DNA of 37,498 nt, taken from a virus. The notes beneath the pieces were generated by a model. The model had not been told where the DNA came from. It did not search any database and saw only the letters and a list, made by a program, of their open reading frames with translations. Below, in pieces: positions 2,457 through 34,000 of this stretch (its first letter is position 1; the number at the start of each line of letters is the position of its first letter). A program made the translations under genes and the position numbers. The stretch is from positions 1 through 37,498 of IMG/VR virus record IMGVR_UViG_3300050014_000087; one strand, given 5' to 3'.

Positions 2457-2494
2457 ATTATAATTTTTCTTGATATTTTGGTTGGTTGCATGTA

Positions 2495-2501
2495 TATTTA
2501 T
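2495..2501 (+). promoter_or_regulatory. Candidate late promoter motif TATTTAT
   Basis: The motif ends 4 nt before the ATG at 2506, which is why that start is preferred over the upstream TTG at 2470. It sits between the sheath terminator and the HEG. Confidence 0.5.
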
Positions 2502-2505
2502 CCAT

Positions 2506-3468
2506 ATGAACAAAGAAGAACTGATTCAATTTATTGAAATACATAAAGATAATTATAGCATTCAATTAAAACGACACCATCCTTTATTGTATGATAAAAT
2601 TAATAAATTATATACGTTTCCAAAATTTGGACAAAAATTATATCATTATCTCAACGGCAATGATATTGGAAAATGTGAAATATGTGGAGAGCAATGTCAA
2701 TTTGATGGGATACATAAAGGATATCGTAAAAGGTGTTCTTATAAATGTATGGCTCAGAGTAAATATGTAATAAGTCATGAACTACGAAACTGTGTTATAT
2801 GCAATAAACAATTTGAAATATATAAAAATAGAGAAAAAACGACATGTTCCAATGAATGTTTATTAAAATTAAATTCTAGTCCAGAAGTTAATGAACGACG
2901 AATGTTATCATTAAAGAAATCCATGATTATAAAATATGGAGTAAATCATGTATCTAAAATTCCAGGATTTAAAAATAAACTAAAATTAACCAAACTATTA
3001 AATCACGGCGATGAAAACTATAATAATATAGAAAAAGGAAAACAAACGAAATTGGAAAAATATGGGGATAAAAATTATAATAATCCTATAAAAAATGAAA
3101 ATACATGTATGAGACGATATGGAGTTCCAAATGTATTTCATTTAAAAAAGAATAAAACAAATGGAAAACAAATATCCAATTTTCAAAAGCGGGAATATGA
3201 GAAAGTTTTGTTACAATATCCAGATGCTGAAATTGAGAAATATTTACCGGATGTTAGAAAATCTGTAGATATTTATATTCCATCAATAAAAAAAGTTATA
3301 GAATGTTTTGGTGATTATTGGCACTGTAACCCATTATTATATTCGGAAAGTTACTATCATAAATATATACATATGAACGCTAACGAGATATGGAAAAAAG
3401 ACGAAGAGAGAATTATTACATTAAAATCCTATGGATATGATGTGGATATAATATGGGAGAATTCATAG
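2506..3468 (+). CDS. Free-standing homing endonuclease, EDxHD/Vsr-like
   Basis: A 320-residue protein. The N-terminal third has two Cys pairs of zinc-knuckle type (CEICGEQC, then CVICNKQF with a later CSNEC). The middle has about four degenerate repeats built on a KYG-x-x-N core (for example KYGVNHVSK, KYGDKNYNN, RYGVPNVFH), a DNA-binding repeat style common in phage HEGs. The C-terminal domain carries ECFGDYWHCNP, matching the E-D-x-H signature of the Vsr-related EDxHD nucleases (I-Bth0305I type), and ends in the family-typical DIIWEN strand. Start chosen at 2506 because a late motif sits just before it and the frame upstream looks non-coding. It is likely mobile DNA between the sheath terminator and the next structural gene, with a role in spreading itself by cutting related phage genomes. 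Confidence 0.8.
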   Translation: MNKEELIQFIEIHKDNYSIQLKRHHPLLYDKINKLYTFPKFGQKLYHYLNGNDIGKCEICGEQCQFDGIHKGYRKRCSYKCMAQSKYVISHELRNCVICNKQFEIYKNREKTTCSNECLLKLNSSPEVNERRMLSLKKSMIIKYGVNHVSKIPGFKNKLKLTKLLNHGDENYNNIEKGKQTKLEKYGDKNYNNPIKNENTCMRRYGVPNVFHLKKNKTNGKQISNFQKREYEKVLLQYPDAEIEKYLPDVRKSVDIYIPSIKKVIECFGDYWHCNPLLYSESYYHKYIHMNANEIWKKDEERIITLKSYGYDVDIIWENS

Positions 3469-5866: not shown

Positions 5867-5886
5867 CTTTTTATAGAACTTAATGG

Positions 5887-5961
5887 ATGAAAAATACAGA
5901 TTACTTATTATATGTAGATATGGACGGGTTTGGGTTGTACAACACTATTTATATGATATGA
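5887..5961 (+). pseudogene. Truncated duplicate of the nucleotidase 5' end
   Basis: A 24-codon frame starting MKNTDYLLYVDMDG. The intact gene at 6610 starts MKNKDYQLYIDLDG: 10 of the first 14 residues are identical, and the DNA is alignable for about 42 nt. Similarity stops where the HEG's late motif and start begin, and the stop codon overlaps the HEG ATG. I read it as the original start of the nucleotidase gene, cut off by HEG insertion, with the working gene now using a copy of its 5' end that lies at the HEG's 3' end. Confidence 0.7.
5946..5952 (+). promoter_or_regulatory. Candidate late promoter motif TATTTATA
   Basis: It lies 5 nt before ATG 5958 and fixes that codon as the HEG start; the next frame-compatible ATG upstream (5883) falls within the nucleotidase remnant. 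Confidence 0.5.
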
Positions 5962-6620
5962 CTGAAGAACATAAACGAAAAATATCAGAAGCATTAAAAG
6001 GAAAACCTCATTTTTATTCTCGTGGTAAAAACAATCCTAATTATGGAGGAAAACTTATCAATAATCCAGAAACAAAGAAAAAATACTTAGAGTCTGTAAA
6101 AATACGAGGACAGGGGTGGAATGATGTTTTGATAAAACAACACGCTGATAGAATGTTAGGAGAATCAAACTGGATGCGTGGAAAACATCATAGTGAAGAA
6201 ACGAAACAAAAAATAAGAAACACAATATTATCTGGATTTGCTTCTGGTAAACGAACCCCGAATAAAACTATGGTTTCCAAACCTGAAAAGGATATTGCTA
6301 AATTGTTGACTGAAATGGGACATTCTATAAAAATGGGAGTAAGAATTGAAAATAATTTATATGATATTTTAGTTATTGAAAAAAATTTAATAATAGAATT
6401 TAATGGAGATTATTGGCATATGAATCCATTAAAATATTCTTCCACATCTTACAATAAGGCGTGTGGTATGACTGCTCAAGAAGTATGGAATCGGGATAAA
6501 CATAAATCCGAAGTTGCTATAAAAAATGGCTACAAATTCAGATGTATATGGGAAAATGATTATAAAAAATCTAATAATAAAAATGATTTTTTGGAGAAGA
6601 TATTGATTGATGAAAAATAA
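5958..6620 (+). CDS. Homing endonuclease, NUMOD3 plus EDxHD-type nuclease
   Basis: A 220-residue protein. The N-terminus (MTEEHKRKISEALKGKP) and a second copy near residues 75-95 (MRGKHHSEETKQKIRNTI) are NUMOD3 motifs, short DNA-binding helices found in GIY-YIG and HNH homing enzymes. The C-terminal nuclease domain has LIIEFNGDYWHMNP, the E-D-x-H core of the EDxHD family, and the terminal RCIWENDY strand. The start at 5958 fits because NUMOD3 motifs begin at the Met and a late motif precedes it. Its last 11 nt overlap the start of the nucleotidase gene, and a broken copy of that gene's 5' end lies just upstream, so this is a HEG insertion at a gene start with a repaired target. It is related to the nucleases at 2506 and 32012. 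Confidence 0.85.
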   Translation: MTEEHKRKISEALKGKPHFYSRGKNNPNYGGKLINNPETKKKYLESVKIRGQGWNDVLIKQHADRMLGESNWMRGKHHSEETKQKIRNTILSGFASGKRTPNKTMVSKPEKDIAKLLTEMGHSIKMGVRIENNLYDILVIEKNLIIEFNGDYWHMNPLKYSSTSYNKACGMTAQEVWNRDKHKSEVAIKNGYKFRCIWENDYKKSNNKNDFLEKILIDEK

Positions 6621-8276: not shown

Positions 8277-10865
8277 ATGTCTAATTTTCGTATATACAAT
8301 GATACTCTTTGTCCCGATATGTGGGATGAATACGCTCACTTGGATCCTCGAGTAAGAGTTAATCTTTTAAGAATGGCATATGATTTTTATGAAAAATCAA
8401 AACTTCCATCTCCTATTGTTGACATTTATTTAATGGGGTCAATAGCAAATTATAATTGGACGCCAGATAGTGATTCGGATGTTCATGTTATTATTGATTA
8501 TAATAAATTGAAAATGCCACCAGAAACTGCCAATAAAACAGTAAAAACTGTTAGTGCAAATTGGAACTTAGAGCATCAAGTTACCGTAAAAAGTCATAAA
8601 GTTGAAATGAACCTTCAGAATGTTAATGAGTTAAAACCTCACGTAACTGGAATTTATTCACTTATAAAAGACAAATGGGTTAGGGTTCCTACTAAACAAA
8701 ACGTTCAAGTAGATAAAATGGCTATTCAATCAAAATACTCAGGTATGAAAAAATATATTGAGTCTGCAATGAGTAGTCAAAGTCGTGAAACAATGAAAAG
8801 TGCAAAAGAATATGTTGATGCATTTAGACAATATGGATTAGATACCAACGGCGAACTTAGTGTTGAAAATATTGTATTTAAAATTCTAAGATCAAAAGGA
8901 ATTATAAAACAACTTAAAGACTCTATAAATGCAACATATGATAGAGAGATGACCGTTGCCGAAGGAAATACAAGTCCCGATGATTATAAAAATATTCATT
9001 ATTTAGACCAAATGCAGGGAGCAATTGATGTTAAAGTTCAAAAAGGAATGGAGTTATGGAAACAATCAGGACTTAAAGTTGGAGATGTTTTATATACACC
9101 ATCAGGCACTGAAGTTACCATTGCAGGAGCGGGGGTAAGAGTAGATAAAAAAGGAGAACCAATTGTATATGTGACGTATTATGATAAAGAGGGGGATGAA
9201 GTAAAAAGTTCAATATATCTTAATAAACTATCATATGAAAATCCAAATGTAGAAGAGGATTATATTGGAACAACGTTTGATGGAGAATTGAAAGCAACCC
9301 CTGTTCAAAATGCCAGATCGGAAATTCATAATCAACATGGAATGATTTCGGGTGTAAATTCCGAAAATTGGAGATATATTGAAAAAGATAATCTTGTTTT
9401 ATGGAATACAGCACCAACATTGGAAGATAAAGAACGTGTTAATGTATTTCTATCAAAACGAGGATTTATAAATCCAAGACATAAAAATATATATACGTTT
9501 GGTGAAGTTAAAATGTCTGATGTAAAATCCAAACTTCCACTACCATCAATGCCAAAGGATGATCAAGGTAATCCCGAATTTAGTCAAATGACTTTGGATA
9601 ATCTTAAAGCAATGAAGAATAAATCTGCTCGGGCATATGATTATTATAAAAACAAAAGTGATGTTGATGGAATTACAAATGCATTAAGAGATTATTGTAA
9701 GTTCAATTTTGAAATAAAAAGAAGATTGAAGTATATAAATCAATCAATTAATGAGAGTGGTGATCCAGATTATAATGCTGCTGCGGACTTCTTTGAAAGA
9801 CGAGATAAACAACTAGCGGATTTGGCGGATTTATTAAAACGTAGTGGAGGTAAAGGAATAGTTCGTTGGGATGTGGTTCCTGCAAAGTTATTGAAGAAAA
9901 CGTGGTTGGTATTTGGAAAATATCATAGAGTAGATTCAAATGATATAGATAAAATATCAGATCAAATATTAACAAATATAGCGAGACTTCAAGCATCTAC
10001 AGAAATGATGGGTCATTCAAATTTTGATGTTAGACCAGAACTAGAAGATTTGGGATATACATTTACAGATGAAGAATGGGAAGATTGGATGACTAATTAT
10101 TTTACCAATAATGATGGATATTGGTTACTAAGCGATTCTGCGTTACCCACATTACAAGAATTATATAGTAAAATTTTTAATGCAGAAAATGATGAAGAGA
10201 AATTATATGCTATAGATAAAGTATTAAATGTGGTTCACCCAAGAAATGATTTAGCATCTATGTTTGTAGAGGGAGGAAGTGCAACTTTGCAAGATGTTTC
10301 AAACCAAGGAGGATATGATTCTCAAAATATAGATGAAATTGCATTTAGTGATAAACTTCCATCTGATAATGCTCCATATATTATTATTGGATTTACAAAT
10401 GGGGATAATAAAACCATATCTGGTATTGATACAACTGGACATCTTGGACATTCCATGTTTAGAAACTTTCCAACTTTAATTCCAGTGTATCTTTGGTGGA
10501 GATATAAATCAAGTAATCAAACATTATATGTGGCATATGAAAATGGTATTCCAACACATATGAGACATTTAAAAAAGAATGTATTGTTGGTAGCATTAAA
10601 ATATCTAAAAGACACATACAATATAAAACCATTACATATTGAAAAGAAATTAGACGATTATTTAGACTATGGACATAGATTGAATGAAAAATCATTAAAA
10701 ACAGAAGGATACGGCGCAGCAAATCCTGAAGAAGACCCATTACATATTCAAGGGGAACGTTGGAGAATAAAATTTGGTAGCAGAAAAACACCAAAAATGA
10801 ATGATGTTACTGAAATGATGAATGAATTGGTTAATGAAACAATAGAAAAATTAAAAAATAAATAA
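8277..10865 (+). CDS. Large protein with N-terminal pol-beta-type nucleotidyltransferase domain
   Basis: An 862-residue protein. Residues 48-75 read IVDIYLMGSIANYNWTPDSD then SDVHVIIDY: the GS pair, a spacer and a DxD (D66, D68) typical of the pol-beta nucleotidyltransferase superfamily, where the aspartates hold the magnesium that activates a nucleotide. Upstream, LCPDMWDEYAHLDPRVR is a helical lead-in; I recall similar domains in large T4-like cyanophage proteins. The rest (about 110-840) is a series of mixed alpha/beta segments without a motif I recognise, with a possible SH3-like strand set around residues 262-320. The C-terminus ends in an amphipathic helix (ELVNETIEKLKNK) like those of the small proteins at 14395 and 15073. 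What is modified is unknown: tRNA, protein and nucleotide targets are all known for the fold. The transferase domain is a small part of the whole. Confidence 0.8.
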   Translation: MSNFRIYNDTLCPDMWDEYAHLDPRVRVNLLRMAYDFYEKSKLPSPIVDIYLMGSIANYNWTPDSDSDVHVIIDYNKLKMPPETANKTVKTVSANWNLEHQVTVKSHKVEMNLQNVNELKPHVTGIYSLIKDKWVRVPTKQNVQVDKMAIQSKYSGMKKYIESAMSSQSRETMKSAKEYVDAFRQYGLDTNGELSVENIVFKILRSKGIIKQLKDSINATYDREMTVAEGNTSPDDYKNIHYLDQMQGAIDVKVQKGMELWKQSGLKVGDVLYTPSGTEVTIAGAGVRVDKKGEPIVYVTYYDKEGDEVKSSIYLNKLSYENPNVEEDYIGTTFDGELKATPVQNARSEIHNQHGMISGVNSENWRYIEKDNLVLWNTAPTLEDKERVNVFLSKRGFINPRHKNIYTFGEVKMSDVKSKLPLPSMPKDDQGNPEFSQMTLDNLKAMKNKSARAYDYYKNKSDVDGITNALRDYCKFNFEIKRRLKYINQSINESGDPDYNAAADFFERRDKQLADLADLLKRSGGKGIVRWDVVPAKLLKKTWLVFGKYHRVDSNDIDKISDQILTNIARLQASTEMMGHSNFDVRPELEDLGYTFTDEEWEDWMTNYFTNNDGYWLLSDSALPTLQELYSKIFNAENDEEKLYAIDKVLNVVHPRNDLASMFVEGGSATLQDVSNQGGYDSQNIDEIAFSDKLPSDNAPYIIIGFTNGDNKTISGIDTTGHLGHSMFRNFPTLIPVYLWWRYKSSNQTLYVAYENGIPTHMRHLKKNVLLVALKYLKDTYNIKPLHIEKKLDDYLDYGHRLNEKSLKTEGYGAANPEEDPLHIQGERWRIKFGSRKTPKMNDVTEMMNELVNETIEKLKNK

Positions 10866-10903: not shown

Positions 10904-11059
10904 ATGGGAAGAAAACAATTAAATAGGACTGAAGATGAACTCCGAAAGCAAAAACGAATCCGAAATCAACGTTATTACCAACGACATATCGACGAAATCA
11001 AACATAAACAAATGCAACGATATTTACAAAGTAGGAAAACATCATTGGCCAGCGGGTAA
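10904..11059 (+). CDS. N-terminal fragment of the HNH homing endonuclease (separate frame)
   Basis: A 51-codon frame beginning MGRKQLNRTEDELRKQKR and continuing with a basic helix (RYYQRHIDEIKHKQMQRYLQ). The same style of helix opens the endonuclease VII-like protein at 29262 (EYYLKNKDKRNEQSAKWRK). It starts 5 nt after a late motif. Removing one A from the AAAA run at 11036-11039 would join it to the HNH frame, giving SRK-HHWPAGNFIDLIGK. I take it as the true N-terminus of the next gene, put out of frame by an insertion of one base or by sequence error. Confidence 0.6.
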   Translation: MGRKQLNRTEDELRKQKRIRNQRYYQRHIDEIKHKQMQRYLQSRKTSLASG

Positions 11060-11618
11060 TTTTATAGATTTAATAGGAAAACGGTTTGATAAATTGTTGG
11101 TAATAAAAAGATTACAAAATGATATTCATAACCAATCAATATGGTTATGTCAATGTGATTGTGGAATAATAAAACCAGTTTCTGGAGCTAATTTAAGAAA
11201 TAGACATAGCAAATCTTGTGGATGTTGGAACGTTTATGCTACTACGCAGAGAAATTTGAAACCCAAATATTATTGGATTTTTTCAATGGTAAAAAGAGTT
11301 GCTAAATATAATAATAAAGTTTGTAGTTTAACATATGATGATATTCTTGAATTTGTAAAAATAAATAAATGTCATTATTGTAGTGGTGATATTGTATGGA
11401 AAGAACATGGGATAGTGGGAGAATTACACAGCTATATGTTGGATAGAAAAAATAATTCTATTGGTTATACAAAAGAAAACTGTGTTGTATGTTGTTCTGT
11501 TTGTAATCGTGTAAAATTTGATGTATTTACATATGATGAAATGTTATATTTAGGAAAAATAGTTGAAAAAATTTTTAATGAAAGAAAATATGATCAAGTT
11601 AAAACCATTGTTGTGTGA
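10935..11618 (+). CDS. HNH homing endonuclease
   Basis: 227 codons from ATG 10935, but only the part from about residue 37 (HHWPAGNFIDLIGKRF) looks genuinely coding; the first residues are Asn/Ser-rich and probably read out of frame (see 10904). Domains: a GKRFDKLLVIKRL beta segment with CQCDCG and KSCGC cysteines, a DNA-binding zinc module common in phage HNH proteins, then the HNH nuclease at about residues 145-205: CHYC, LDRKNNSIGYTKENC and CSVCNRVKFD, the zinc-binding and H-N-H-like core (the first catalytic position reads MLDRKNN, as in this subfamily). The last 29 nt overlap the ADP-ribosyltransferase-like gene. If the N-terminal break is real, the protein may be inactive or weakly expressed. 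Confidence 0.75.
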   Translation: MNSESKNESEINVITNDISTKSNINKCNDIYKVGKHHWPAGNFIDLIGKRFDKLLVIKRLQNDIHNQSIWLCQCDCGIIKPVSGANLRNRHSKSCGCWNVYATTQRNLKPKYYWIFSMVKRVAKYNNKVCSLTYDDILEFVKINKCHYCSGDIVWKEHGIVGELHSYMLDRKNNSIGYTKENCVVCCSVCNRVKFDVFTYDEMLYLGKIVEKIFNERKYDQVKTIVV

Positions 11619-21967: not shown

Positions 21968-22267
21968 ATGAGAAGATATTCTAACATCCCAATAGAAACT
22001 AGATATGATGGAAAAAGAGTTTATAAAACTACACGATATCCAGTAATTCCTCCATCATCAAGTGATTTATATATAATTTCCAATGAAACTGATTTTTTGG
22101 ATACTTTGGCGTATAAGTATTATGGAGATCCAACACTTTGGATTATTATAGCTTCTGCTAACCCAGGGTTGGGAAAGGGAAGGTTAAGTATTCCATCAGG
22201 ATTAACTTTAAGAATACCTATCAATATAAATGATATAATAAGTCAATTTAATAATATTAATTCATAA
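21968..22267 (+). CDS. 53: LysM-type baseplate wedge protein (gp53-like)
   Basis: A 99-residue protein. Residues 35-90 form a LysM fold: DLYIISNETDFLDTLAYKYY, GDPTLWIIIASANPGLGKGR, then LSIPSGLTLRIPI. The D-x-L-D-x-x-A-x-x-x-Y-GDP-x-L-W pattern is typical of small baseplate LysM proteins such as T4 gp53 and its counterparts in other contractile systems, where the domain clamps the wedge to the hub rather than binding peptidoglycan. It is shorter than T4 gp53 (196 aa) because it has only a short N-terminal arm. The start is 3 nt after the preceding stop, so translation is probably coupled. Confidence 0.82.
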   Translation: MRRYSNIPIETRYDGKRVYKTTRYPVIPPSSSDLYIISNETDFLDTLAYKYYGDPTLWIIIASANPGLGKGRLSIPSGLTLRIPININDIISQFNNINS

Positions 22268-22288: not shown

Positions 22289-23113
22289 ATGTGTGATATA
22301 ATAACAAATATTATGAATGTTTGGAAAAAAAGTTGTCCTAGTTGTGGAAAAGAACAGGAATATAAGTTAAAAAAGAATTTTAATAAAGCAATTAGGTTAA
22401 ATCGTATGTGTAAAGAATGTATGTATAAATCTGATATTTACATTAAAAAACATAAACATAATACATCTGTTATGTGGAATGATAAATGTAAACGAGAATA
22501 TATAATTCAAAAAAGAAAAGAATCTATTAATGAATGGAAAAAATCATCGTCTATAACGTTTAATACCCAAGAATATAAAGAAAAACAGAGTAAGATACAA
22601 ATTGAATATTTAAAATTACATCCACAAAAAACTATAAATAATATAGAACGATTTTCAAAGTTAAGAGAAGATGAAAACTCAGTTTTTAATTCACCCGAAT
22701 ATAAGGAGAAATTAAAAAACGCATCTATAAATGCATGGAAAAATCCTACTATTCGTAAAAAATACAATGATGCGCTTGTTAAGACGAAATGGATAAAAGT
22801 TAGAACTGATAAAGGGCAACTAGAGTTAATGGATAAATGGAATAAATTAGGATTTCGGTTTCAACCCAATTATCAAATAAAAACAGATAAAGATTTATTC
22901 TACATTGATGGATATGATCCAATTCACAATGTAGTATTGGAATATGATGGAAAATATCATCTTAAACCATCCCAACAACAAAAAGATTTAATTAGACAAA
23001 ATAAAATAATAGATATACTACATCCTAAAAAATTCTGGAGATATAATGCAATGAATAAACAGTATAAAAACATTCTAGAGAAAGTAGGAACCCCTGATGC
23101 CACAAGCAATTAA
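22289..23113 (+). CDS. Homing endonuclease, PD-(D/E)XK-like with zinc knuckle
   Basis: A 274-residue protein from ATG 22289; ATG 22313 (MNVWKKSCPSCGKEQEY) is an equally good start. An N-terminal zinc knuckle pairs CPSC with CKEC near residues 18-48. The middle has three copies of a charged segment with WKNPT/FNSPEYKEKL/FNTQEYKEKQ, DNA-binding repeats of NUMOD type. The C-terminal nuclease (about 195-250) reads DKGQLELMDKWNKLGFRFQP, FYIDGYDPIHNVVLEYDGKY: D, then E-x-D on the next strand, as in PD-(D/E)XK nucleases, and a following Lys/Gln-rich helix. It is a different family from the EDxHD enzymes here. The last 17 nt overlap the start of the hub-like gene, separating it from gp53. Confidence 0.75.
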   Translation: MCDIITNIMNVWKKSCPSCGKEQEYKLKKNFNKAIRLNRMCKECMYKSDIYIKKHKHNTSVMWNDKCKREYIIQKRKESINEWKKSSSITFNTQEYKEKQSKIQIEYLKLHPQKTINNIERFSKLREDENSVFNSPEYKEKLKNASINAWKNPTIRKKYNDALVKTKWIKVRTDKGQLELMDKWNKLGFRFQPNYQIKTDKDLFYIDGYDPIHNVVLEYDGKYHLKPSQQQKDLIRQNKIIDILHPKKFWRYNAMNKQYKNILEKVGTPDATSN

Positions 23114-26030
23114 GCCCTGGGAGCCAAGTAATTTTCCATCTGAAATACAAGATGAACTAAACCGAAGAAAGGTCAATAGAAGTTTTTCATTTGTAGAAGC
23201 GGATAAAGGTGGATGGGAATCATCTGGAAATGGTGATTGGAAAAAATATAATGGTCCTATGTCTCCTTGGGTAAGATTTTGTTCTAATGGAATAGGAAAA
23301 CAATATCAAATAGATTCTAATGGAAATTATGTTTTAGATAGATATGGTAATAGAAAAAAATTAAAAGATTCTGATATCAAGCCTGGATTTGTATTTTTTG
23401 GAGGTAAAGATTTCTACAGTGGTTATGGTATAAACAATACAGAAAAGAAAGAATCAATAATTGGATATGTTCCTGATAAAACAAGTACTCCACATATTAT
23501 AGAAAACTTACAAACGAGTCAATATCCAATTAATGTTCCTCCTCCAGAAATAGAAAAAATAAATGTAACCATTCAAAAGGAGTTATATAGAAGAGCTACT
23601 ATAGAATGGGTTTGTTTTTCTAAAGCACAGATGGAATATATGACTCCATATTTTTTAATACCTGGAATTTCTTGTGTATTAGAATGGGGATGGAATCATT
23701 ATGATACAACATCTTTAATAGATTTATCAGAAACTAAAAAGTTAAAGAAAATGTTCAATAATCCATATCTTCTTTATACTGAAAATATTTTAAAATCCAA
23801 GGGTAATTATGATGTAATTATTGGAATCGTAACTCATTTTGAATGGGCTATGGAAGGAAATAAAATAAAATGTAAAACGGAAATTACATCAAAAGATCGT
23901 ATATATGCTGGACTAATAGTGGATTCTAATGTTGAGGAAGGTAAGACTAAAAATGATTTTGTAATTCCATATAACAGTCTTTCTCAATTTATTGATAAAG
24001 AAATATTTAATTTTAAAAATATAAACGCTACTGATAGTATTGAGAAATCTATGGAGAAAGTATCTCCAATTAAACCGTTTATAGCATCTCCATATAATTC
24101 TTTAATAGAGCAACAAAAACAAATAGATGCAAAATCAACACAACCATCTTCATTTAATAATTTTTTATCGGCAATAACAAGTTCAATCTCAAAAATATTG
24201 GATAGTGTTCCAAAGACTGGTTTAAATGGAAATGGATTGGAAACTCTACAAAATCAACTATATCCCGACAATAAAAAATCATTAGATACATATGCTTCTT
24301 CTTCTCTCAATTTTAATCAGTTTATATCATATGTTAACCAGAGTCATCCAAACAATTGGACGGAATATGTTTATGGGGTTTTCTATGGAAGAAATTTAAA
24401 AGATCCAAAAGGTTTATTTCAGGAGGGCGCAAATAAAAAAGAGGATTTTGATTATAAATCACACAACGATAAGTTATGGATTAATTTTGGTTTGTTAATT
24501 GAAATTATTAATTTTCACGCATCATCGTTAACACATATGGGTCAAAAAGAATTATTTCATATTGATATTGATGATGTTGTTATTGGTGGGCATCCTAATT
24601 TAATATCTTCAAATGGAGATGTTTGTTTAATTCCAAATGCAATGGCACCCAAGTATTTTTTTGGACCTTGGTATGCATTAAGACAAGATAATAGAGTAGA
24701 AAATGAAAATGATTATCTTTCTCAAATGCAACCAAGTACCTATCCATCAACCGATGGAACACTTAAAATGGTGGATGCCGAAAGAGATGGTAAATTAGCA
24801 GATTATAGAATAAAGGTTATTTGTAAACCAATTTATAACATTTATAGAGATGATATAGACGAAATTATAAATGGTATAAGATATAATAATACAAACGTTG
24901 GAGATGCCAACAATTTTTCAAAATCCAGTAATAAATATTCATTCCCATTTATTAACAATGTTAATGAATATCCTGCAAAATTTTCTGGATATTTAAAAAA
25001 TATTTATGTTAATGTTACGTTTCTACAATCGTTGATAAATAATTCGGATGTAAAAACTTACCCTCAATTCATAAAAAAAGTTTTGGAAGGAATTTCTGGA
25101 GCGTGTGGAGATTTTTGGGATTTTTCATTGGTTGGGGGCAGTGGAAGTGGTTATGATAATGATGATGATAATAATATTAAAATATCTTCTATGAAGATTG
25201 TTGATAATAAATTTATGGCATCTATTAATAAAGGAAAAGTTTTTACTTTTGATTATTATGATTCAGATAGTTTGTTATTGGGTGTAAATTTTAAACCAAC
25301 GATTAGTAATGCACAGGCTATTAGAAGTATTTATTCCAAGAATAACCATCCAGATAAAACTATATCCATTATTAATGGAAATAATGAATTGTTAGATTAT
25401 AAATTTGAAGATCGTCTTACTAAAGATGATGAAGAATATTCACCGCCAGTATATAATAAAGATATATCGGGATTTGTTAACACAATGCGTGAACTACAAC
25501 AAGTTAGACCAATTGATGGTTCTTATCAAATTACATGTGTAAGTAAAAATTTAATTCAGTCCAATATTCCAACTCATTCTCAAAGTGGGATACAAACTAT
25601 TCTTAACTCGGTTCCAAAAACTGGGTTAAATGGAAATGGATTAGAAACTCTACAAAATCAATTATATCCAGAGTCTATTAAAAAAGTGCCGATTAAAGAA
25701 GTTCCAGTTATACGAAGATTAGTTCTTCCTTCCGCAGAAATTCTACGTCTCCTACTTGACGATGGCGATGAAGAAAATAATCCAAAATATACTGGTATTA
25801 TGCCAGGAATTCAGGCAACATTCACAATTCAAGGAATTGGTGGGTTAAGAACGTTTATGATGTTTCTTGTTAGAAACCTTCCAGAACCATATTCTCATAA
25901 AAATATTGTATTTAGAATTGTAGATGTTGTGGAAAACGTTGAAAATGGAAAGTGGATTACGACTATTACCGCAGGTATTATTCCATTACGTGGGTTTATT
26001 AAAAAACGACTCGGAATAGATCCAAAATAA
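23097..26030 (+). CDS. Large baseplate hub-like protein with a 21-residue internal repeat
   Basis: A 977-residue protein beginning MPQAIKPWEPSNFPSEIQ. Distinct regions: a WVCFSKAQMEYMTPYFLIPG segment (about 175-195) with LEWGWNHYDT after it; a linker with the first repeat copy (370-390); a central domain (about 440-680) including ELFHIDIDDVVIGGHPNLIS and PKYFFGPWYALRQDN; an acidic Asp/Asn stretch (about 690); the second repeat copy (838-858); and a C-terminal beta domain (TFTIQGIGGLRTFMMFLVRN, LPEPYSH, FRIVDVVENVENGKWITTI). That last block resembles hub proteins of the gp27/gpD type, where strands such as these close the barrel domains. It follows gp53-like, as expected for a hub or spike-carrying protein, but at 977 residues is far longer than T4 gp27 (391 aa). 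Confidence 0.62.
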   Translation: MPQAIKPWEPSNFPSEIQDELNRRKVNRSFSFVEADKGGWESSGNGDWKKYNGPMSPWVRFCSNGIGKQYQIDSNGNYVLDRYGNRKKLKDSDIKPGFVFFGGKDFYSGYGINNTEKKESIIGYVPDKTSTPHIIENLQTSQYPINVPPPEIEKINVTIQKELYRRATIEWVCFSKAQMEYMTPYFLIPGISCVLEWGWNHYDTTSLIDLSETKKLKKMFNNPYLLYTENILKSKGNYDVIIGIVTHFEWAMEGNKIKCKTEITSKDRIYAGLIVDSNVEEGKTKNDFVIPYNSLSQFIDKEIFNFKNINATDSIEKSMEKVSPIKPFIASPYNSLIEQQKQIDAKSTQPSSFNNFLSAITSSISKILDSVPKTGLNGNGLETLQNQLYPDNKKSLDTYASSSLNFNQFISYVNQSHPNNWTEYVYGVFYGRNLKDPKGLFQEGANKKEDFDYKSHNDKLWINFGLLIEIINFHASSLTHMGQKELFHIDIDDVVIGGHPNLISSNGDVCLIPNAMAPKYFFGPWYALRQDNRVENENDYLSQMQPSTYPSTDGTLKMVDAERDGKLADYRIKVICKPIYNIYRDDIDEIINGIRYNNTNVGDANNFSKSSNKYSFPFINNVNEYPAKFSGYLKNIYVNVTFLQSLINNSDVKTYPQFIKKVLEGISGACGDFWDFSLVGGSGSGYDNDDDNNIKISSMKIVDNKFMASINKGKVFTFDYYDSDSLLLGVNFKPTISNAQAIRSIYSKNNHPDKTISIINGNNELLDYKFEDRLTKDDEEYSPPVYNKDISGFVNTMRELQQVRPIDGSYQITCVSKNLIQSNIPTHSQSGIQTILNSVPKTGLNGNGLETLQNQLYPESIKKVPIKEVPVIRRLVLPSAEILRLLLDDGDEENNPKYTGIMPGIQATFTIQGIGGLRTFMMFLVRNLPEPYSHKNIVFRIVDVVENVENGKWITTITAGIIPLRGFIKKRLGIDPK
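24204..24266 (+). repeat. Internal protein repeat, copy 1
   Basis: Codes for residues 370-390 of the hub-like protein, SVPKTGLNGNG followed by LETLQNQLYP, identical in amino acids to copy 2 at 25608-25670. The preceding residues (I-x-x-ILD) and following D-x-x-KK also match. Confidence 0.85.
25608..25670 (+). repeat. Internal protein repeat, copy 2
   Basis: Codes for residues 838-858. Against copy 1 the DNA differs by 5 synonymous changes (AAG/AAA, GGT/GGG, TTG/TTA, CTA/TTA, CCC/CCA) plus an AGT/TCG serine switch, with no amino acid change. Confidence 0.85.
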
Positions 26031-26060: not shown

Positions 26061-26069
26061 GGTTTGTTG

Positions 26070-27425
26070 ATGATAGAAACATTAACTGATTATAATAATT
26101 TTAAATCCAATAACTCGGTTGGAGATTTAATATTGCATGTGATTCCATTTAAAGATGGGATGCATCCTGCTATTAATAGTTCACTTATTTTATTTGTTAG
26201 AAATATTTTAACTGGAAAAACATATTATTTTTCTTTTAATCACCCAGATTCGAAATCCACCATTACTCCATCCATTTTTATAAATGATTTTTTGGTTAAT
26301 AATAAAAATAAAATTTGGGTATTAGATAAGAAATCATTTACACAAGTTTTTAAATACTCCAATGTTTATGATGCCAATTTGATGGGATATTTACAAAATA
26401 ATTCTACATTGGAATTGGATTCATACGAAACTCCTGCTCATTATCTTATTCGTAAAAATTCAAATGGAATTGGAAATATAAACTTGGCAATCCCCATTCT
26501 AAAACATAAAGAAATGTTTGATGAAATGTCTAATGACATTACAGCAATGTTGGAAGGAAATGATGTTGATAGTTCATTTATTAATTTTAATGATGTTATA
26601 ATTGATACTCTTGGAAAGTTAGAATCACAAGGCATTTTTGTAGATAAAGAAAAATTTAATACACGTTTTAAAGTAAATGTTGGAGAAGATGGATTGGTTT
26701 ATAGTCAATATAATGTTTATACTTCAACTGGAAGACCAAGTAATAGTTATGATAATGTAAACTACTCTGCCATAAATCATACGGATGGTACACGAAAATG
26801 TTTTGTATCAAGATATAAATCAGATGGAAGGATGGTTTTAATTGATTATACTACATTTCATCCAAGAATCATATGCCATTTGACTAATTATAATATTCCA
26901 TTGGAAGTTGATATATACGAATATTTGGCAAAATTATATTTCCATAAATCTGAGGTTGATGAAACTGATGTAAAGAATTCTAAGCAACTGACATTTCGCC
27001 AATTTTTCGGCGGTGTGGAAGATGAATATTCTCATATAAAATATTTATCAAATTTAAAATCTTTTATTAATGAACAGTGGACGTTTTTTAAGAATAATGG
27101 ATATGTATTAACTCCAATATTTAAACGAAAAATTACTGATAAACATATTTTAGATCCAAACCCTCCGAAGGTTTTTAATTATATTTTACAAGCAGTTGAA
27201 GGTGAGATTTCAATTTCCAGATTAAAGATGGTTATGGATTATTTACAGAATAAAAAAACAAAACCAGTTCTTTATATTTATGACGCAATACTTTATGATT
27301 TTAATAAAGAAGATGGATATGAAACATTAAATGATTTACGCAATATAATGAGTTTGAATGGTATATTTCCTATGAAAACATATGTTGGGGAAAGTTATCA
27401 TGATGTTAAATTAGTATCCGTTTAA
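26070..27425 (+). CDS. Divergent family-A DNA polymerase-like protein with apparent thumb deletion
   Basis: A 451-residue protein (ATG 26070; TTG 26064 less likely). Family-A landmarks appear in order: LESQGIFVDKEKF (Pol I 'ERNGIKVD' position), STGRPSNSYDNVNYSAI (the TGR-x-S segment, about residue 220), motif A LIDYTTFHPRIICHLT (Asp259), motif B as K-QLTFRQFFGG (Lys305, matching the O-helix K-x3-F-x3-YG with Phe for Tyr), a Q-x3-G-E-I helix and motif C LYIYDAILYDF (Asp405, HDE changed to YDA). Both catalytic aspartates are kept. Only about 30 residues lie between GIFVD and TGR, against roughly 110 in E. coli Pol I, so the thumb helices are mostly missing. Residues 1-170 may be a decayed exonuclease domain (YDANLMGYL). 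Its neighbours include SSB, UvsX and a 5' nuclease. Activity remains to be shown. Confidence 0.72.
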   Translation: MIETLTDYNNFKSNNSVGDLILHVIPFKDGMHPAINSSLILFVRNILTGKTYYFSFNHPDSKSTITPSIFINDFLVNNKNKIWVLDKKSFTQVFKYSNVYDANLMGYLQNNSTLELDSYETPAHYLIRKNSNGIGNINLAIPILKHKEMFDEMSNDITAMLEGNDVDSSFINFNDVIIDTLGKLESQGIFVDKEKFNTRFKVNVGEDGLVYSQYNVYTSTGRPSNSYDNVNYSAINHTDGTRKCFVSRYKSDGRMVLIDYTTFHPRIICHLTNYNIPLEVDIYEYLAKLYFHKSEVDETDVKNSKQLTFRQFFGGVEDEYSHIKYLSNLKSFINEQWTFFKNNGYVLTPIFKRKITDKHILDPNPPKVFNYILQAVEGEISISRLKMVMDYLQNKKTKPVLYIYDAILYDFNKEDGYETLNDLRNIMSLNGIFPMKTYVGESYHDVKLVSV

Positions 27426-28326: not shown

Positions 28327-28725
28327 ATGCAAGATAATTTCAACCGCCAATTACTTTGTACTTTTTCAACTTTGTCCGAATTCAAAGAAACACTTCATAA
28401 AATTAATAAATTCTATGACGTATATAATAATAGAATATTTGCGTTTTCAAATGTAAATAATCCTAAAGAAGTATATATTACATATAATGTATTAAATATG
28501 AAAAAGGAATCTCCCAAATTCCCCAATACAATTCTAATTCATCGTAAAAAACAAACCAATACTTTATATACCCTTAATAGCATGAATAAGTTAATAGAGG
28601 AAGAACATGGAAGTATAGATCATAATTACGTTATTGATTGGACATTATATTCAAATTCACTTATAATCACTGGCGATGTATCAATTAGAATAATTCCTTT
28701 AAAAATACTTTCAATTACTGAATAA
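28327..28725 (+). CDS. Conserved-looking small protein, unknown
   Basis: A 132-residue protein, 10 nt after the preceding stop and probably in the same transcript. It alternates short strands and helices (LLCTFSTLSEFKETLHKINK, NPKEVYITYNVLNMKKE, NTILIHRKKQTNTLYTLNSM, YVIDWTLYSNSLIITGD), giving a compact alpha/beta look with no Cys pairs, membrane segment or nuclease motif. Several phage small proteins with a similar strand-helix layout bind nucleic acid, but nothing specific supports that here. Confidence 0.62.
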   Translation: MQDNFNRQLLCTFSTLSEFKETLHKINKFYDVYNNRIFAFSNVNNPKEVYITYNVLNMKKESPKFPNTILIHRKKQTNTLYTLNSMNKLIEEEHGSIDHNYVIDWTLYSNSLIITGDVSIRIIPLKILSITE

Positions 28726-29261: not shown

Positions 29262-29711
29262 ATGATTTCCGAAAAGCAAAAACAATATTTTCAGGAGTAT
29301 TATCTCAAGAATAAAGATAAACGAAATGAGCAGAGTGCTAAATGGCGAAAATCCAATAAAGAAAAATGTAAAGAATATGTCTATAGGTGGAGAAATAATA
29401 ATCGTATGAAAACTCATAAAATAGATAAACGAGCACATCTAAAAAATAGGCATGGCATAACATCAGAAGGATATACAAAAATGTTATTAAATCAAAATGG
29501 ATGCTGTGAAATTTGTGGAAAACCACATACTGATTATAAAAGAAGTTTTCATGTTGACCACAATCATTTGACAGGAAATATTCGTGGACTTCTTTGTGTT
29601 AGATGTAATGCCGGAATTGGATATTTTAAAGATAACACGGATTTACTTGAAAAGGCCAAATTATATCTAACCAAATATGCAATACTAGAAAAAGTTAAAG
29701 ATTTAAATTAA
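29262..29711 (+). CDS. Endonuclease VII-like HNH nuclease (free-standing)
   Basis: A 149-residue protein. The N-terminal 60 residues are a basic helix of the kind seen in mobile nucleases (YYLKNKDKRNEQSAKWRKSN). Then come CCEICGKPH, FHVDHNHLTGNIRGLLCVRC and NAGIGYFKDN: a zinc site of two CxxC pairs around VDH-x-H-x-TG-x-x-RG-LLC-x-x-CN, the signature of T4 endonuclease VII (gp49, 157 aa). T4 gp49 resolves Holliday junctions and trims branched DNA before packaging. Here the different N-terminus and the location between unrelated genes make a homing-type relative more likely than the packaging resolvase, although the two cannot be separated by sequence alone. Confidence 0.78.
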   Translation: MISEKQKQYFQEYYLKNKDKRNEQSAKWRKSNKEKCKEYVYRWRNNNRMKTHKIDKRAHLKNRHGITSEGYTKMLLNQNGCCEICGKPHTDYKRSFHVDHNHLTGNIRGLLCVRCNAGIGYFKDNTDLLEKAKLYLTKYAILEKVKDLN

Positions 29712-29829: not shown

Positions 29830-30672
29830 ATGGCAGTAAATGTACAAGCACTCGCCGCACGTCTCAAACAGTTTGAGGATGGTGCGAAAGCCTCAGAATT
29901 CGCAAAATTACTTTGGAAACCAAAGGAAGGACTTCAGACAGTTAGAATTGTTCCTTATAAATTCAATCCAGATTCTCCGTTTATTGAATTGAAGTTTTAT
30001 TACAAACTTGCAGGAAATAATTATCTTGCTCCTTGCACTTTTGGAAAACCAGATCCTATACTTGAAACAATTGACGCACTTCGTTCAAGTGGAAGTAATG
30101 AAGAAAAGGATATCGCCGCAAAATTGGCTCCAGTTACTCGAACCTATGCCCCAGTTATTGTAAGGGGAGAAGAAGAGTTGGGAGTTCGTTTTTGGGGATT
30201 TGGAATTCAAGTCTATAAGCAATTGTTAAAACTTATGACTAATGCAAAATATGGAGATATTACTTCATGGACTGAAGGAAGAGATATCGAAGTAGAGTTT
30301 CATAAAGAAAGCAAGAAAAAGAATGCTAAGGGACAATCTTTCCCAGAAACAAATATTCTTGCAGATCCTAATATAACTCCAGTTGTTAATCCTACTCGTA
30401 GGGATTTGATGGAAAAACTTATGGATCAAACAGACATTCTTACGATTTTTCCTTTGAAATCGTATGATGAATTAAAGTCTGTTGTTGACAAGTGGTTGGA
30501 TCCTGCTCAGGATACATCTGCTCCAGAGACTGACACTCCTTCAGCTAATAGCAACCCTACACCAGCAAGTGGTGCGGGTCAATCCTCTACTCCAGCACCC
30601 GCAGCAGCATCTTCTGCTAACTCTGGTGCAATGGCAGACGAGTTTGAAAAGTTCTTTCAAACTAAATCATAA
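29830..30672 (+). CDS. 32: Single-stranded DNA-binding protein (gp32-like)
   Basis: A 280-residue protein close in size to T4 gp32 (301 aa). The N-terminus (VNVQALAARLKQFEDG) matches the cooperativity arm region, and LWKPKEGLQTVRIVPYKFNP is the well-kept KxxxG-x-x-x-x-RI-x-P entry to the DNA-binding core. Further strands (FIELKFYYKLAGNNYLAP, VRFWGFGIQVYKQLLKLM) complete an OB-type fold. A Pro/Ser/Ala/Thr linker (about 222-268) leads to the acidic, aromatic tip ADEFEKFFQTKS that contacts partner proteins. Oddly, only one Cys (LAPCTFGK) remains, so the zinc site of T4 gp32 is missing. It coats ssDNA for the polymerase and UvsX next door and is followed by a terminator, so it is probably expressed on its own at high level. 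Confidence 0.88.
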   Translation: MAVNVQALAARLKQFEDGAKASEFAKLLWKPKEGLQTVRIVPYKFNPDSPFIELKFYYKLAGNNYLAPCTFGKPDPILETIDALRSSGSNEEKDIAAKLAPVTRTYAPVIVRGEEELGVRFWGFGIQVYKQLLKLMTNAKYGDITSWTEGRDIEVEFHKESKKKNAKGQSFPETNILADPNITPVVNPTRRDLMEKLMDQTDILTIFPLKSYDELKSVVDKWLDPAQDTSAPETDTPSANSNPTPASGAGQSSTPAPAAASSANSGAMADEFEKFFQTKS

Positions 30673-30700
30673 ATAATATCGTAATATATTAAAATTACTT

Positions 30701-30735
30701 GTTAATGCTACCGATCTATGGTAGCATTAACTTTT
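30701..30735 (+). terminator. Terminator between SSB and uvsX
   Basis: A perfect 12-bp stem (GTTAATGCTACC at 30701-30712 with GGTAGCATTAAC at 30720-30731), a 7-nt loop, then TTTT. It ends 14 nt before the uvsX start and overlaps the in-frame TTG at 30699, which excludes that codon as a start. Confidence 0.88.
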
Positions 30736-30749
30736 ATATAAAGGAACTT

Positions 30750-31958
30750 ATGGCTATTGCAAAAAAGAATTCAAGTAAACACATTGACAGTGACGTAGAT
30801 ATAGAACGTGATGAGTTAGCATTGCTCGTTCAAAAAGAACTTAACAAATCTCAGAAAGATGGAACAAAGGTATCATTCTTTTTGGATGAAGAAGATAATC
30901 CAGTGGATGTTAGAGAATGGGTAAGTACTGGATCTACTCTTCTTGATTTGGCCATTTCTAATAGACCCCACGGAGGGTTTCCTGTTGGTAGAATGGTAGA
31001 ATTAAGTGGTTTGGAAAGCACTGGAAAAAGTTTAATGTGTGCTCAAATTATTTCAGAAACACAAAAGAGAGGCGGATTAGCCGTATTTTTTGATTCTGAA
31101 TCAAGTGTTGACAAAAAGTTTTGGACCGTTCTCGGTGTAAACATTAAAAATGTAAATTATCAGAAGTTCACTACTTTAGAGGAACTATTCGCAATGATTG
31201 AATTGGTTATTGGAGTATTCCGAAAGAAGGATGATGGACGATTGCTTACTATTTTTATTGACTCGGTTGCTCAAGCATCTGTAGAAACAGAAATGGAATC
31301 TGAACATGGAGTTAGTGGATACAATACAGGTAAAGCAATTATTCTTAGTAAAGCAATGAGAAAAATTACGAACCTTGTATCTAATCAACGTGTTCTTATT
31401 GTTTATACTAATCAAGTTCGTTACAATATGAATGCAGGACCATTTGGTGACAAGTGGATTGTTCCTGGTGGAAAAGCATTACCATTTGCTTGTTCGGTTC
31501 GTCTTCGTCTTGCCAACTTGGGAAAATTAAAAGTTACCCGTGGTGGACAAAAAGAAGTTATTGGAATGAAGTGTACTGCTCAAGTCATTAAGAATCGTTG
31601 TGGTCCTGGATACAGAACTGCTCAATTTGAAATTCATTATGACAGTGGTATTCAAGATTTATCAAGTTGGTTAAACTACATGAAACTTCATGGACTTATC
31701 ACTGGTGATAAAAGTGGATATACTTTCACTAGAACTAGTGGTGAAAAAATTGAGTTTGATGCAGCAAAATTTGTAGAATTAATGAATACCGACTCAAACT
31801 TGAAAGAAGAAGTTTATCAATCTATATGTAATGAATATATCATGCAGTATCGTGATCCAAATTCCAAAATTGTAGAAGAAATTGAAACCGAAAGTGGAGA
31901 AAATGATGACATTACTAAAGATGCAGTAAAAGAATCAGATTCTTCTGATGAAGATTAA
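30750..31958 (+). CDS. uvsX: UvsX/RecA-type recombinase
   Basis: A 402-residue protein (T4 UvsX 391 aa). Start ATG 30750, preceded by AAAGGAA, the only clear Shine-Dalgarno-like site before a major gene here. Landmarks: STGSTLLDLAISNRPHGGFP, Walker A GLESTGKS (87-94), the AVFFDSESS segment with the catalytic-type acidic residue, LLTIFIDSVAQAS (Walker B), the L1 and L2 DNA-binding regions around TEMESEHGVSGYNTG and NAGPFGDKWIVPGGKALPFA, and a C-terminal acidic tail (SGENDDITKDAVKESDSSDE). It pairs homologous DNA for recombination-dependent replication and repair, with SSB upstream and the 5' nuclease downstream. The sequence looks intact. An EDxHD homing gene now separates it from the 5' nuclease. 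Confidence 0.93.
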   Translation: MAIAKKNSSKHIDSDVDIERDELALLVQKELNKSQKDGTKVSFFLDEEDNPVDVREWVSTGSTLLDLAISNRPHGGFPVGRMVELSGLESTGKSLMCAQIISETQKRGGLAVFFDSESSVDKKFWTVLGVNIKNVNYQKFTTLEELFAMIELVIGVFRKKDDGRLLTIFIDSVAQASVETEMESEHGVSGYNTGKAIILSKAMRKITNLVSNQRVLIVYTNQVRYNMNAGPFGDKWIVPGGKALPFACSVRLRLANLGKLKVTRGGQKEVIGMKCTAQVIKNRCGPGYRTAQFEIHYDSGIQDLSSWLNYMKLHGLITGDKSGYTFTRTSGEKIEFDAAKFVELMNTDSNLKEEVYQSICNEYIMQYRDPNSKIVEEIETESGENDDITKDAVKESDSSDED

Positions 31959-32011: not shown

Positions 32012-32938
32012 ATGGATAATACAGAATTGCATAAAGTAGTAGATGAATATTATAATGAGTTTATTACAAATGAAAATATAATTGGGTTTGAAGGACTTCT
32101 TAAAACTAAAGGATTCGGCAGTAAACTCCGAGTCCGTATTAGAAATTTAATATATAATAAGTATGGTAAAGAAAATCTGATTGCTATCTACCGTAGTAGA
32201 TTGGCGAAATCTGCTCATAAAAATAGAACTAAAGAAAGTTATTATATTTCTCCAGAACAACGAGAAAAAATGATTTATGGTAGTAAGAAAAGTTGGATTG
32301 GGGATGATGCTCGAAAAGAAAAAAGTAGAGAACTGATGGTAAAATATTGTCATCCCAATGCATGGACAGATGAAACTAATAAAAAAAGATCTAAATCTCG
32401 TGAAGGATATAAACACAGTGAAAATACCATTCAGAAAATAAAAACCGCACTTTCTGGAAAACCATTAACAAAAAAACATAGAGAAGCGTTGTGTGTGCCT
32501 AAAATTAGATCAGGATCTTTAGGACTTAAACGGAGTGATATTACAAAACAAAAATTATCTCAAATAACAACTTTGCAGTGGAAAAGTGGGATTCATAAAG
32601 TGACATATAAATCTAAGGGGCAAATAGAAGTGGCTAATATGTTTAGAAATGAAGGTTTCTGTGTAGAAGAGGAATTTTTTATAAACGGAAAACCATATGA
32701 TGTTTTTGTAAAAGACAAAAATTTGATAGTAGAGTTTAATGGAACATACTGGCATAGAGATCCAAGATTTTATGATGTATCTTCCATATGTCAAGAAAAG
32801 TGGAATTATGATAAGAATAAACTTGATATAGCTAAACAAAATGGATATAATGTGTTTGTAATATGGCAATATGATTGGGAACATAGTAATGATAAATTGT
32901 CAATAATAAAGGAAATATTAAATGGAATTAACCAATGA
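32012..32938 (+). CDS. Homing endonuclease, NUMOD3 plus EDxHD-type nuclease
   Basis: A 308-residue protein. An N-terminal helical DNA-binding region (about 1-90, with KTKGFGSKLRVRIRNLIYNK) precedes two NUMOD3-type stretches near residues 128-185 (HSENTIQKIKTALSGKPLTK, SDITKQKLSQITTLQ). The C-terminal nuclease reads KGQIEVANMFRNEGF, LIVEFNGTYWHRDPRF and VFVIWQYDWEH: the E-x-N-G-x-YWH-x-D core of the EDxHD family, with Thr in place of the Asp of the two relatives at 2506 and 5958. It sits between uvsX and the 5' nuclease and overlaps the latter's start by 17 nt. The changed Asp/Thr could lower activity. Confidence 0.82.
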   Translation: MDNTELHKVVDEYYNEFITNENIIGFEGLLKTKGFGSKLRVRIRNLIYNKYGKENLIAIYRSRLAKSAHKNRTKESYYISPEQREKMIYGSKKSWIGDDARKEKSRELMVKYCHPNAWTDETNKKRSKSREGYKHSENTIQKIKTALSGKPLTKKHREALCVPKIRSGSLGLKRSDITKQKLSQITTLQWKSGIHKVTYKSKGQIEVANMFRNEGFCVEEEFFINGKPYDVFVKDKNLIVEFNGTYWHRDPRFYDVSSICQEKWNYDKNKLDIAKQNGYNVFVIWQYDWEHSNDKLSIIKEILNGINQ

Positions 32939-33082: not shown

Positions 33083-34000
33083 ATGGATGAAAATGGAAAT
33101 CATACAGGCGGAATTGTTGGATTTCTTAAATCTATTGGGTATGCCATAAAGCTTCTTGGCCCAACTCGTTGTATAGTTGTATTTGACGGGGCAGGAGGAT
33201 CATTTAAACGTCGCCAAATATTCTCCGAATATAAAGCACATAGAACTGGAAAAGTTAGATTAAATCGTGCTTACGAAGATTTGTCAGATGCTAACACAGA
33301 AGAAGAACATATGCGAAAACAATTTACAAGAGTTATTCAATATCTTCAAACTCTTCCAGTAAATATGCTTTCGGTTGACCACGTTGAAGCAGATGATGTA
33401 ATTGCTTATCTTGCAACGGATTATTTTAAAGAATCGAATAAAGTTTATATTATGTCATCAGATAAAGATTTCCTTCAATTATGTAATAATAATATAAATG
33501 TATATTCTCCAACTAAAAAAAGAATTTATGGACCCGCAGAAGTGTTGGCAGAATATCAAATTCATCCTAATAATTTTGTAATGTTTAGAGCAATGGATGG
33601 TGATAACTCCGATAATATTAATGGTATTGAAGGTGCTGGTCCAAAAACAATAATAAAACACTTTCCATGGTTGAATGAAGAAAAAATACACACTACTGAT
33701 GAACTTGTTTCTCATGCAATTAATTTAAGAAATAAATATAAAGTAATGGAAAACATTGCAAGTGGGAAAGATATATTGGATAGAAATGTTTCATTAATGC
33801 AATTAAAAGATACAATGTTAACTACTATTGCACAACTTCATTGTAATGAACGTTTGGGAACATCTCAAATACCAAAATTGGATAGAAATGCATTTTTCAC
33901 ATTGATTAGAGATGATATGATAGATAATAACATTCCTTATCATGTTGATTGGATTAATACGGTGTGGGCGTCATTGGATTCTGTAGTAAGAAGTGAATAA
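33083..34000 (+). CDS. 5'-3' exonuclease / flap endonuclease (FEN, T4 RNase H-like), frameshifted 5' end
   Basis: 305 codons from ATG 33083; the frame itself opens at 33035. Motifs in order: IVGFLKSIGYAIKLLGPTRC, IVVFDGAGGSFKRRQ with EYKAHR (second Asp and the helical arch), VEADDVIAYLA, SSDKDFLQL and GDNSDNINGIEGAGPKT (the H3TH loop and last Asp). This is the FEN/Pol I 5'-nuclease family that removes RNA primers and flaps in lagging-strand synthesis. The first catalytic Asp is missing from this frame and is in the fragment at 32922. Three explanations: sequence error, recent decay, or a -1 shift at translation; no standard slippery heptamer is present, so the first two are favoured. It works with the divergent polymerase at 26070, whose family usually carries this nuclease as its N-terminus. 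Confidence 0.85.
   Translation: MDENGNHTGGIVGFLKSIGYAIKLLGPTRCIVVFDGAGGSFKRRQIFSEYKAHRTGKVRLNRAYEDLSDANTEEEHMRKQFTRVIQYLQTLPVNMLSVDHVEADDVIAYLATDYFKESNKVYIMSSDKDFLQLCNNNINVYSPTKKRIYGPAEVLAEYQIHPNNFVMFRAMDGDNSDNINGIEGAGPKTIIKHFPWLNEEKIHTTDELVSHAINLRNKYKVMENIASGKDILDRNVSLMQLKDTMLTTIAQLHCNERLGTSQIPKLDRNAFFTLIRDDMIDNNIPYHVDWINTVWASLDSVVRSE

Follow-up and report, generated by a model that had tools for sequence, protein, structure and literature searches.

The window analysed here, the whole 37,498-nucleotide stretch of IMG/VR virus record IMGVR_UViG_3300050014_000087, carries on its plus strand a gene for a polymerase-like protein of the family divPolA1, followed by genes of replication and recombination proteins. 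The open reading frame encodes 453 amino acids if read from the TTG start codon at position 26064 and 451 amino acids if read from the ATG at 26070. Residues are numbered here in the 453-aa form, in which the D259, K305 and D405 of the first-pass annotation become D261, K307 and D407. The locus comprises the following features, given with the evidence for each:

21968 to 22267, plus strand: baseplate wedge/hub protein, gp25-like, an upstream landmark (phrog_7145, E=3e-7)
26064 to 27425, plus strand: divPolA1 gene, thumbless family-A polymerase core (ORF, AlphaFold2 model, fold match, family profile)
26064 to 26558, plus strand: residues 1-165, exonuclease-like domain lacking the DEDD carboxylates (model alignment to Pol I large fragments including the 3′-5′ exonuclease domain; column conservation)
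26670 to 26684, plus strand: residues 203-207, short link at the site of the missing thumb, the absent part being approximately 558-650 of E. coli Pol I (HMMER, HHalign, span count)
26727 to 26735, plus strand: residues 222-224, TGR, with R224 equivalent to Pol I R668 in 70/70 sequences (alignment of 70)
26844 to 26846, plus strand: motif A catalytic Asp261, equivalent to Pol I D705 in 70/70; H266 stands at the E710 position in 70/70 (alignment of 70)
26982 to 27011, plus strand: motif B, from K307 (K758) to F315 (Y766) and G316, FFGG (alignment of 70)
27282 to 27284, plus strand: motif C catalytic Asp407, equivalent to Pol I D882 in 70/70 (alignment of 70)
28327 to 28725, plus strand: 132-aa conserved protein (conserved HRKK...TNTLYT.N.LN; locus comparison)
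29830 to 30672, plus strand: gp32-like single-stranded DNA-binding protein (PF08804, E=4e-10)
30699 to 31958, plus strand: UvsX-like recombinase (phrog_97, E=6e-65)
33083 to 34000, plus strand: 5′-3′ exonuclease of the FEN / RNase H type (phrog_107, E=3e-35)

The AlphaFold2 model of the protein, calculated from 62 sequences of the window and IMG/VR, has a mean pLDDT of 93.4 and a pTM of 0.91, and Foldseek ranks the Klenow fragment of E. coli first among the PDB entries (1d8y; E=4.7e-18; TM of 0.77 by query length). In a VIA alignment with the M. smegmatis Pol1, 412 residues are aligned with a Z of 28.7 and an rmsd of 3.4, covering residues 1-450 of the model. The profile, Foldseek and VIA comparisons all show the Pol I fold with motifs A, B and C in order, and the protein as modelled consists of a Pol I exonuclease-like domain, a palm and fingers, the thumb being absent. 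The first-pass annotation had described a family-A core with these motifs and the TGR segment in Pol I order and had proposed fold prediction and structural search against Pol I as a check, which bears the assignment out.

A Pfam search with the window protein alone gave no match at E<=1, the gathering score of PF00476 was not reached, and the family-B polymerase family PF00136 was likewise not matched. The PF00476 profile search that had been suggested therefore fails for this protein by itself; however, it succeeds for 43 of the 62 relatives (best E=8e-13), some of which pass the Pfam cut-off, and no RNA-polymerase families are among the Pfam matches of the 62 members. PHROG 17 (DNA polymerase) matches window residues 197-431 with E=2e-13. 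While phmmer with the window sequence alone found nothing in the PDB, a profile built from the 62 relatives recovered Klenow fragments (E=3e-9), and the family profile was needed for the PDB match because the single-sequence search gave nothing. The HHalign comparisons of the family with single T7 gp5 and immuto PolA sequences were not significant, single-sequence templates being too weak. Given the E-values of Foldseek and the profile and the Z of VIA, the homology of divPolA1 to Pol I is not a matter of chance.

The thumb subdomain of Pol I is absent from the window protein according to HMMER, HHalign and a count of the residue span. First, HMMER aligns profile positions 162-199 to approximately residues 520-557 of E. 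coli Pol I, whose positions in this alignment are offset by 323 from the chain numbering, and the alignment then resumes in the palm. Next, the edges of the gap, at which window residue ~202 corresponds to E. coli ~557 in HMMER and window residue 208 to E. coli 651 in HHalign, leave about 5 window residues where E. coli Pol I has about 93. Finally, the conserved glycine G190 and the TGR arginine R224 are separated by 33 residues in the window and by 19-39 across the family (n=70), as opposed to 123 residues in the equivalent span of E. coli Pol I from G544 to R668. The short distance from GIFVD to TGR on which the absence of the thumb had originally been proposed is thereby confirmed, and the deletion, to judge from the aligned relatives, is a trait of the family and no assembly error.

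The exonuclease-like domain was passed over in the first-pass annotation, which covered the polymerase half only. Within residues 1-165, D103 is by column conservation the sole near-invariant acid, and a conserved DxE is missing from the sequence columns of the first strand (22-28). The 3′-5′ exonuclease site is very probably dead, as read from the sequence columns and the model rather than residue by residue on the coordinates.

Conservation in the polymerase site was counted over 70 aligned sequences including the window, most of which share only about 22-62% identity with its protein. D261, D407, R224, Q376 and G316 are each present in 70/70 sequences, and K307 in 69/70. The equivalents of D261 and D407 in Pol I bind metal, and R224 and Q376 correspond to R668 and Q849, which together with N845 touch the template and the primer terminus in Pol I; of these contacts R668 and Q849 are kept in the family and N845 is mostly kept. 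At the E710 position there is a histidine, invariant in all 70 members, and at the position of R754, a triphosphate-binding residue of Pol I, there is a valine in the window and an arginine in no family member. The H-D-E of motif C in Pol I is Y-D-A/S in the family, with an invariant tyrosine at the H881 position and alanine or serine at that of E883, and the replacement by YDA observed in the first-pass annotation is thus correct for the window. The same is true of the phenylalanine noted in place of the O-helix tyrosine Y766, although only the window has this change, and tyrosine stands in the remaining 69 sequences. Given the lost R754 and the replaced H881 and E883, catalysis by divPolA1 may be weak or altered. 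That the polymerase site is conserved in a protein whose exonuclease site has decayed argues for divPolA1 being an active polymerase.

The family was named divPolA1 by Yutin et al. (2024, Virol J 21:200; PMC11348598), who described it in 14 phages including Flavobacterium phage immuto. As published, divPolA1 keeps the catalytic palm, has a truncated thumb and an inactivated 3′-5′ exonuclease, adjoins replication genes and occurs in genomes that additionally encode a regular PolA, PolB or PolC; it was reported without a function (PMC11348598). The window gene has the catalytic residues of the palm, the truncated thumb, the dead exonuclease, homology to immuto and replication genes downstream, and is a member of this family. 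The polymerase type has therefore been known since 2024, and of the two possibilities raised in the first-pass annotation, that of a new polymerase type falls, while that of a repair-type enzyme dependent on partners is plausible. The direct homologue in immuto is gp001, found by tblastn with E=4e-45 over 92% and by the family profile with E=6e-118. The family proves far larger than published, with hundreds of candidate relatives: scanning IMG/VR by motif yielded 582 candidate stretches, of which the best 80 were inspected and are at least 30% identical, the complete ORFs among these 80 having about 420-465 residues. A scan of genome bins gave four stray contigs. One divPolA1 frame, at 86154-87413 of a 210-kb viral contig (G027:C1), contains a single in-frame TGA, for which recoding, a frame break or an error is possible.

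The gene order around divPolA1 is near-universal, running from baseplate genes through divPolA1, the 132-aa protein, gp32 and UvsX to FEN. The last four are each found in 31 of the 32 loci with at least 7 kb of downstream sequence, and a gp25-like gene in all 37 loci with 7 kb upstream; the late-region location near SSB, UvsX and FEN genes that had been noted earlier is thus upheld, the three being identified by PF08804, phrog_97 and phrog_107, respectively. The divergence of divPolA1, measured as pairwise protein distance, follows that of the 132-aa protein (r 0.82), gp32 (0.79), UvsX (0.76) and FEN (0.88) about as closely as UvsX follows gp32 (0.84), the permutation maxima being at most 0.24. 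Since the gene order is kept and the protein distances correlate, divPolA1 travels with the recombination module, while the replicase differs among genomes, and the family has the look of a vertically inherited core component of the recombination-replication module of such T4-like phages. The neighbourhood alone cannot separate roles in replication, recombination and repair. New in comparison with the publication are the candidate relatives, the near-universal gene order, the correlated divergence, the invariant histidine at the E710 position and the loss of Arg754.

The 132-aa protein has homologues in 75 loci, almost always between divPolA1 and gp32, and its core contains an invariant HR and N..YT.N..N. 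Its model is alpha/beta with a pLDDT of 90 and has no close match in the PDB (best Foldseek E 0.09, best VIA Z 5.1), and the matches to PHROG are weak and allow no assignment. The protein is a candidate partner of divPolA1; as a literal thumb supplied in trans it was rejected, the thumb being helical and the model alpha/beta.

Several other genes accompany the locus. A 977-aa protein at 23097-26030, directly upstream of divPolA1, has no Pfam or PHROG match and is probably a tail or baseplate protein, and relatives of it are located upstream of divPolA1 in about 36 loci. The ORFs at 2470-3468, 5883-6620 and 32012-32938 all match the same homing/HNH endonuclease families; the third lies between UvsX and FEN, where some relatives (L035 and L037, for instance) also have homologues, others having them elsewhere. 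Two ORFs, at 29262-29711 and 10935-11618, match recombination endonuclease VII / HNH families, the former being within the interval between divPolA1 and gp32. In an 862-aa ORF at 8277-10865 the first 225 residues match the uncharacterised PHROG 36119 (E=3e-38), and no relatives of this ORF were detected in the divPolA1 loci. A conserved protein of ~160 residues is encoded downstream in the window's clade (L116 18791-19264, L115 6143-6640, L118 661-1230) and may resemble the clamp-loader small subunit gp62 of T4.

The activity, substrate, pathway and partners that we infer for divPolA1 are those of a distributive accessory DNA polymerase that fills gaps or extends strands during recombination-dependent replication, a role to which we would give about an even chance. 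The protein most likely keeps template-directed nucleotide addition through D261, D407, K307, R224 and Q376. Because the thumb is absent, its hold would be on the primer end alone, with the upstream duplex left free, and distributive synthesis is to be expected. Its task would most likely be the filling of short gaps, Okazaki-type maturation together with the separate FEN, or the lengthening of strand-invasion ends that UvsX makes on DNA coated with gp32. Replication of the genome would be left to a separate enzyme of the PolA, PolB or PolC type. FEN and divPolA1 would then possibly represent a split counterpart of the bacterial Pol I.

Translesion synthesis or damage tolerance at stalled forks, together with UvsX, is a conceivable, though unlikely, alternative role, with which the recombination-gene neighbourhood agrees, as does the low processivity expected of an enzyme having neither a functional proofreading site nor a thumb; however, the sequence gives no sign of an enlarged lesion-tolerant pocket, and the proposal overlaps with the gap-filling model. 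It appears doubtful that divPolA1 synthesizes DNA without gripping a duplex, in a terminal-transferase-like, primer-making or protein-primed manner, by a logic such as that of the thumbless Abi reverse transcriptases. The duplex-binding thumb is wholly lost and the active site preserved, as such an activity would have it, but the template and primer-terminus residues R668, Q849 and mostly N845 are kept. AbiA is likewise without a thumb, a loss that its authors tie to a single-stranded product (PMC11077055); the Abi enzymes, however, place another domain in the thumb site and none is seen in divPolA1. A role as primase was rejected, since immuto has a gene annotated as DnaG and thus already possesses one. 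There is also only a slim chance that the family-A active site of divPolA1, released from the duplex-gripping thumb, operates within a dedicated complex that includes gp32, UvsX and the 132-aa protein. Priming, extension or tailing of recombination intermediates would then be its task, and the 132-aa protein might provide in trans the DNA contacts that the thumb no longer makes; if true, this would be a kind of polymerase activity that T4-type replication is not known to have.

That divPolA1 has lost catalysis and serves as a structural or regulatory subunit, such as a scaffold loading gp32, UvsX or the replicase, is quite improbable: the replaced R754, H881 and E883 and the already dead exonuclease-like domain are in favor of this, but both metal-binding aspartates, the motif B lysine, R668 and Q849 show no or almost no variation over 70 divergent sequences, unlike the decayed exonuclease site. 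Very unlikely, and largely refuted, is the main idea of the first-pass annotation, by which divPolA1 would serve as the principal or only replicase in place of a family-B enzyme and gain processivity from partners, since, despite the conserved replication-gene neighbourhood and the absence of another family-A polymerase in the window, relatives including the window's own clade carry a separate full-length replicase.

The complete genomes of immuto and Mel-JY01 encode, respectively, a separate PolA (a 778-aa frame ~38 kb from divPolA1) and a separate PolB, and the 484-kb record LR756508 contains PolB pieces and a DnaE match. PolB is present in 7 of 17 longer contigs. A search with a conserved gene that lies further downstream in the clade of the window reached additional longer contigs, and a further 10 contigs among these carry both divPolA1 and PolB. 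One of the 10 is G026, a 100-kb contig from the same clade as the window, in which divPolA1 is 55% identical to that of the window and PolB lies 57 kb downstream. The family-B polymerase sought in the rest of the genome is thus found in relatives, while the window record is a fragment of only 37 kb that has no PF00476 match and leaves the regular PolA, PolB or PolC of its own genome outside view. Several fragments of the wider clade also have no match of the PolA, PolB or PolC type, and since longer contigs carry PolB, this absence is most likely due to contigs that end too early. The complete genome of the phage from which the window comes is predicted to contain a full PolB.

If active, divPolA1 would be a natural Klenow-type polymerase that lacks a thumb, and thereby a test of what this domain is really required for. 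Its role in recombination-dependent replication is a concrete, testable question, with the 132-aa neighbour as a defined candidate partner.

Among known systems, Rhodothermus phage RM378, which the first-pass annotation had brought forward as a family-A precedent, is likewise a T4-like phage; however, in profile searches it has a family-B match (E=1.2e-34) and neither a PF00476 nor a divPolA1 match, and the precedent was rejected. The AbiA, AbiK and Abi-P2 reverse transcriptases similarly consist of palm and fingers without a thumb but have a reverse-transcriptase fold and a helical domain in the thumb site, the likeness being one of analogy only (PMC11077055). The divPolA2 of barbaviruses is also a second, thumb-lacking PolA-like protein next to a regular PolB, although its unrelated N-terminal globular domain and variable gene neighbourhood set it apart in the published description (PMC11348598). 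The Klenow fragment of Pol I (PF00476) shares with the window protein the exonuclease-like domain, palm and fingers, the motif order A-B-C and TGR, whereas in the window and its family the thumb is absent, the exonuclease site is dead, R754 is lost, E710 is replaced by histidine and HDE by YDA/S. Finally, divPolA1 of immuto, although this protein, gp001, shares only ~29% identity with that of the window and has a tyrosine at the Y766 position where the window has phenylalanine, has in common with it the palm residues, the truncated thumb, the dead exonuclease domain and the downstream replication genes.
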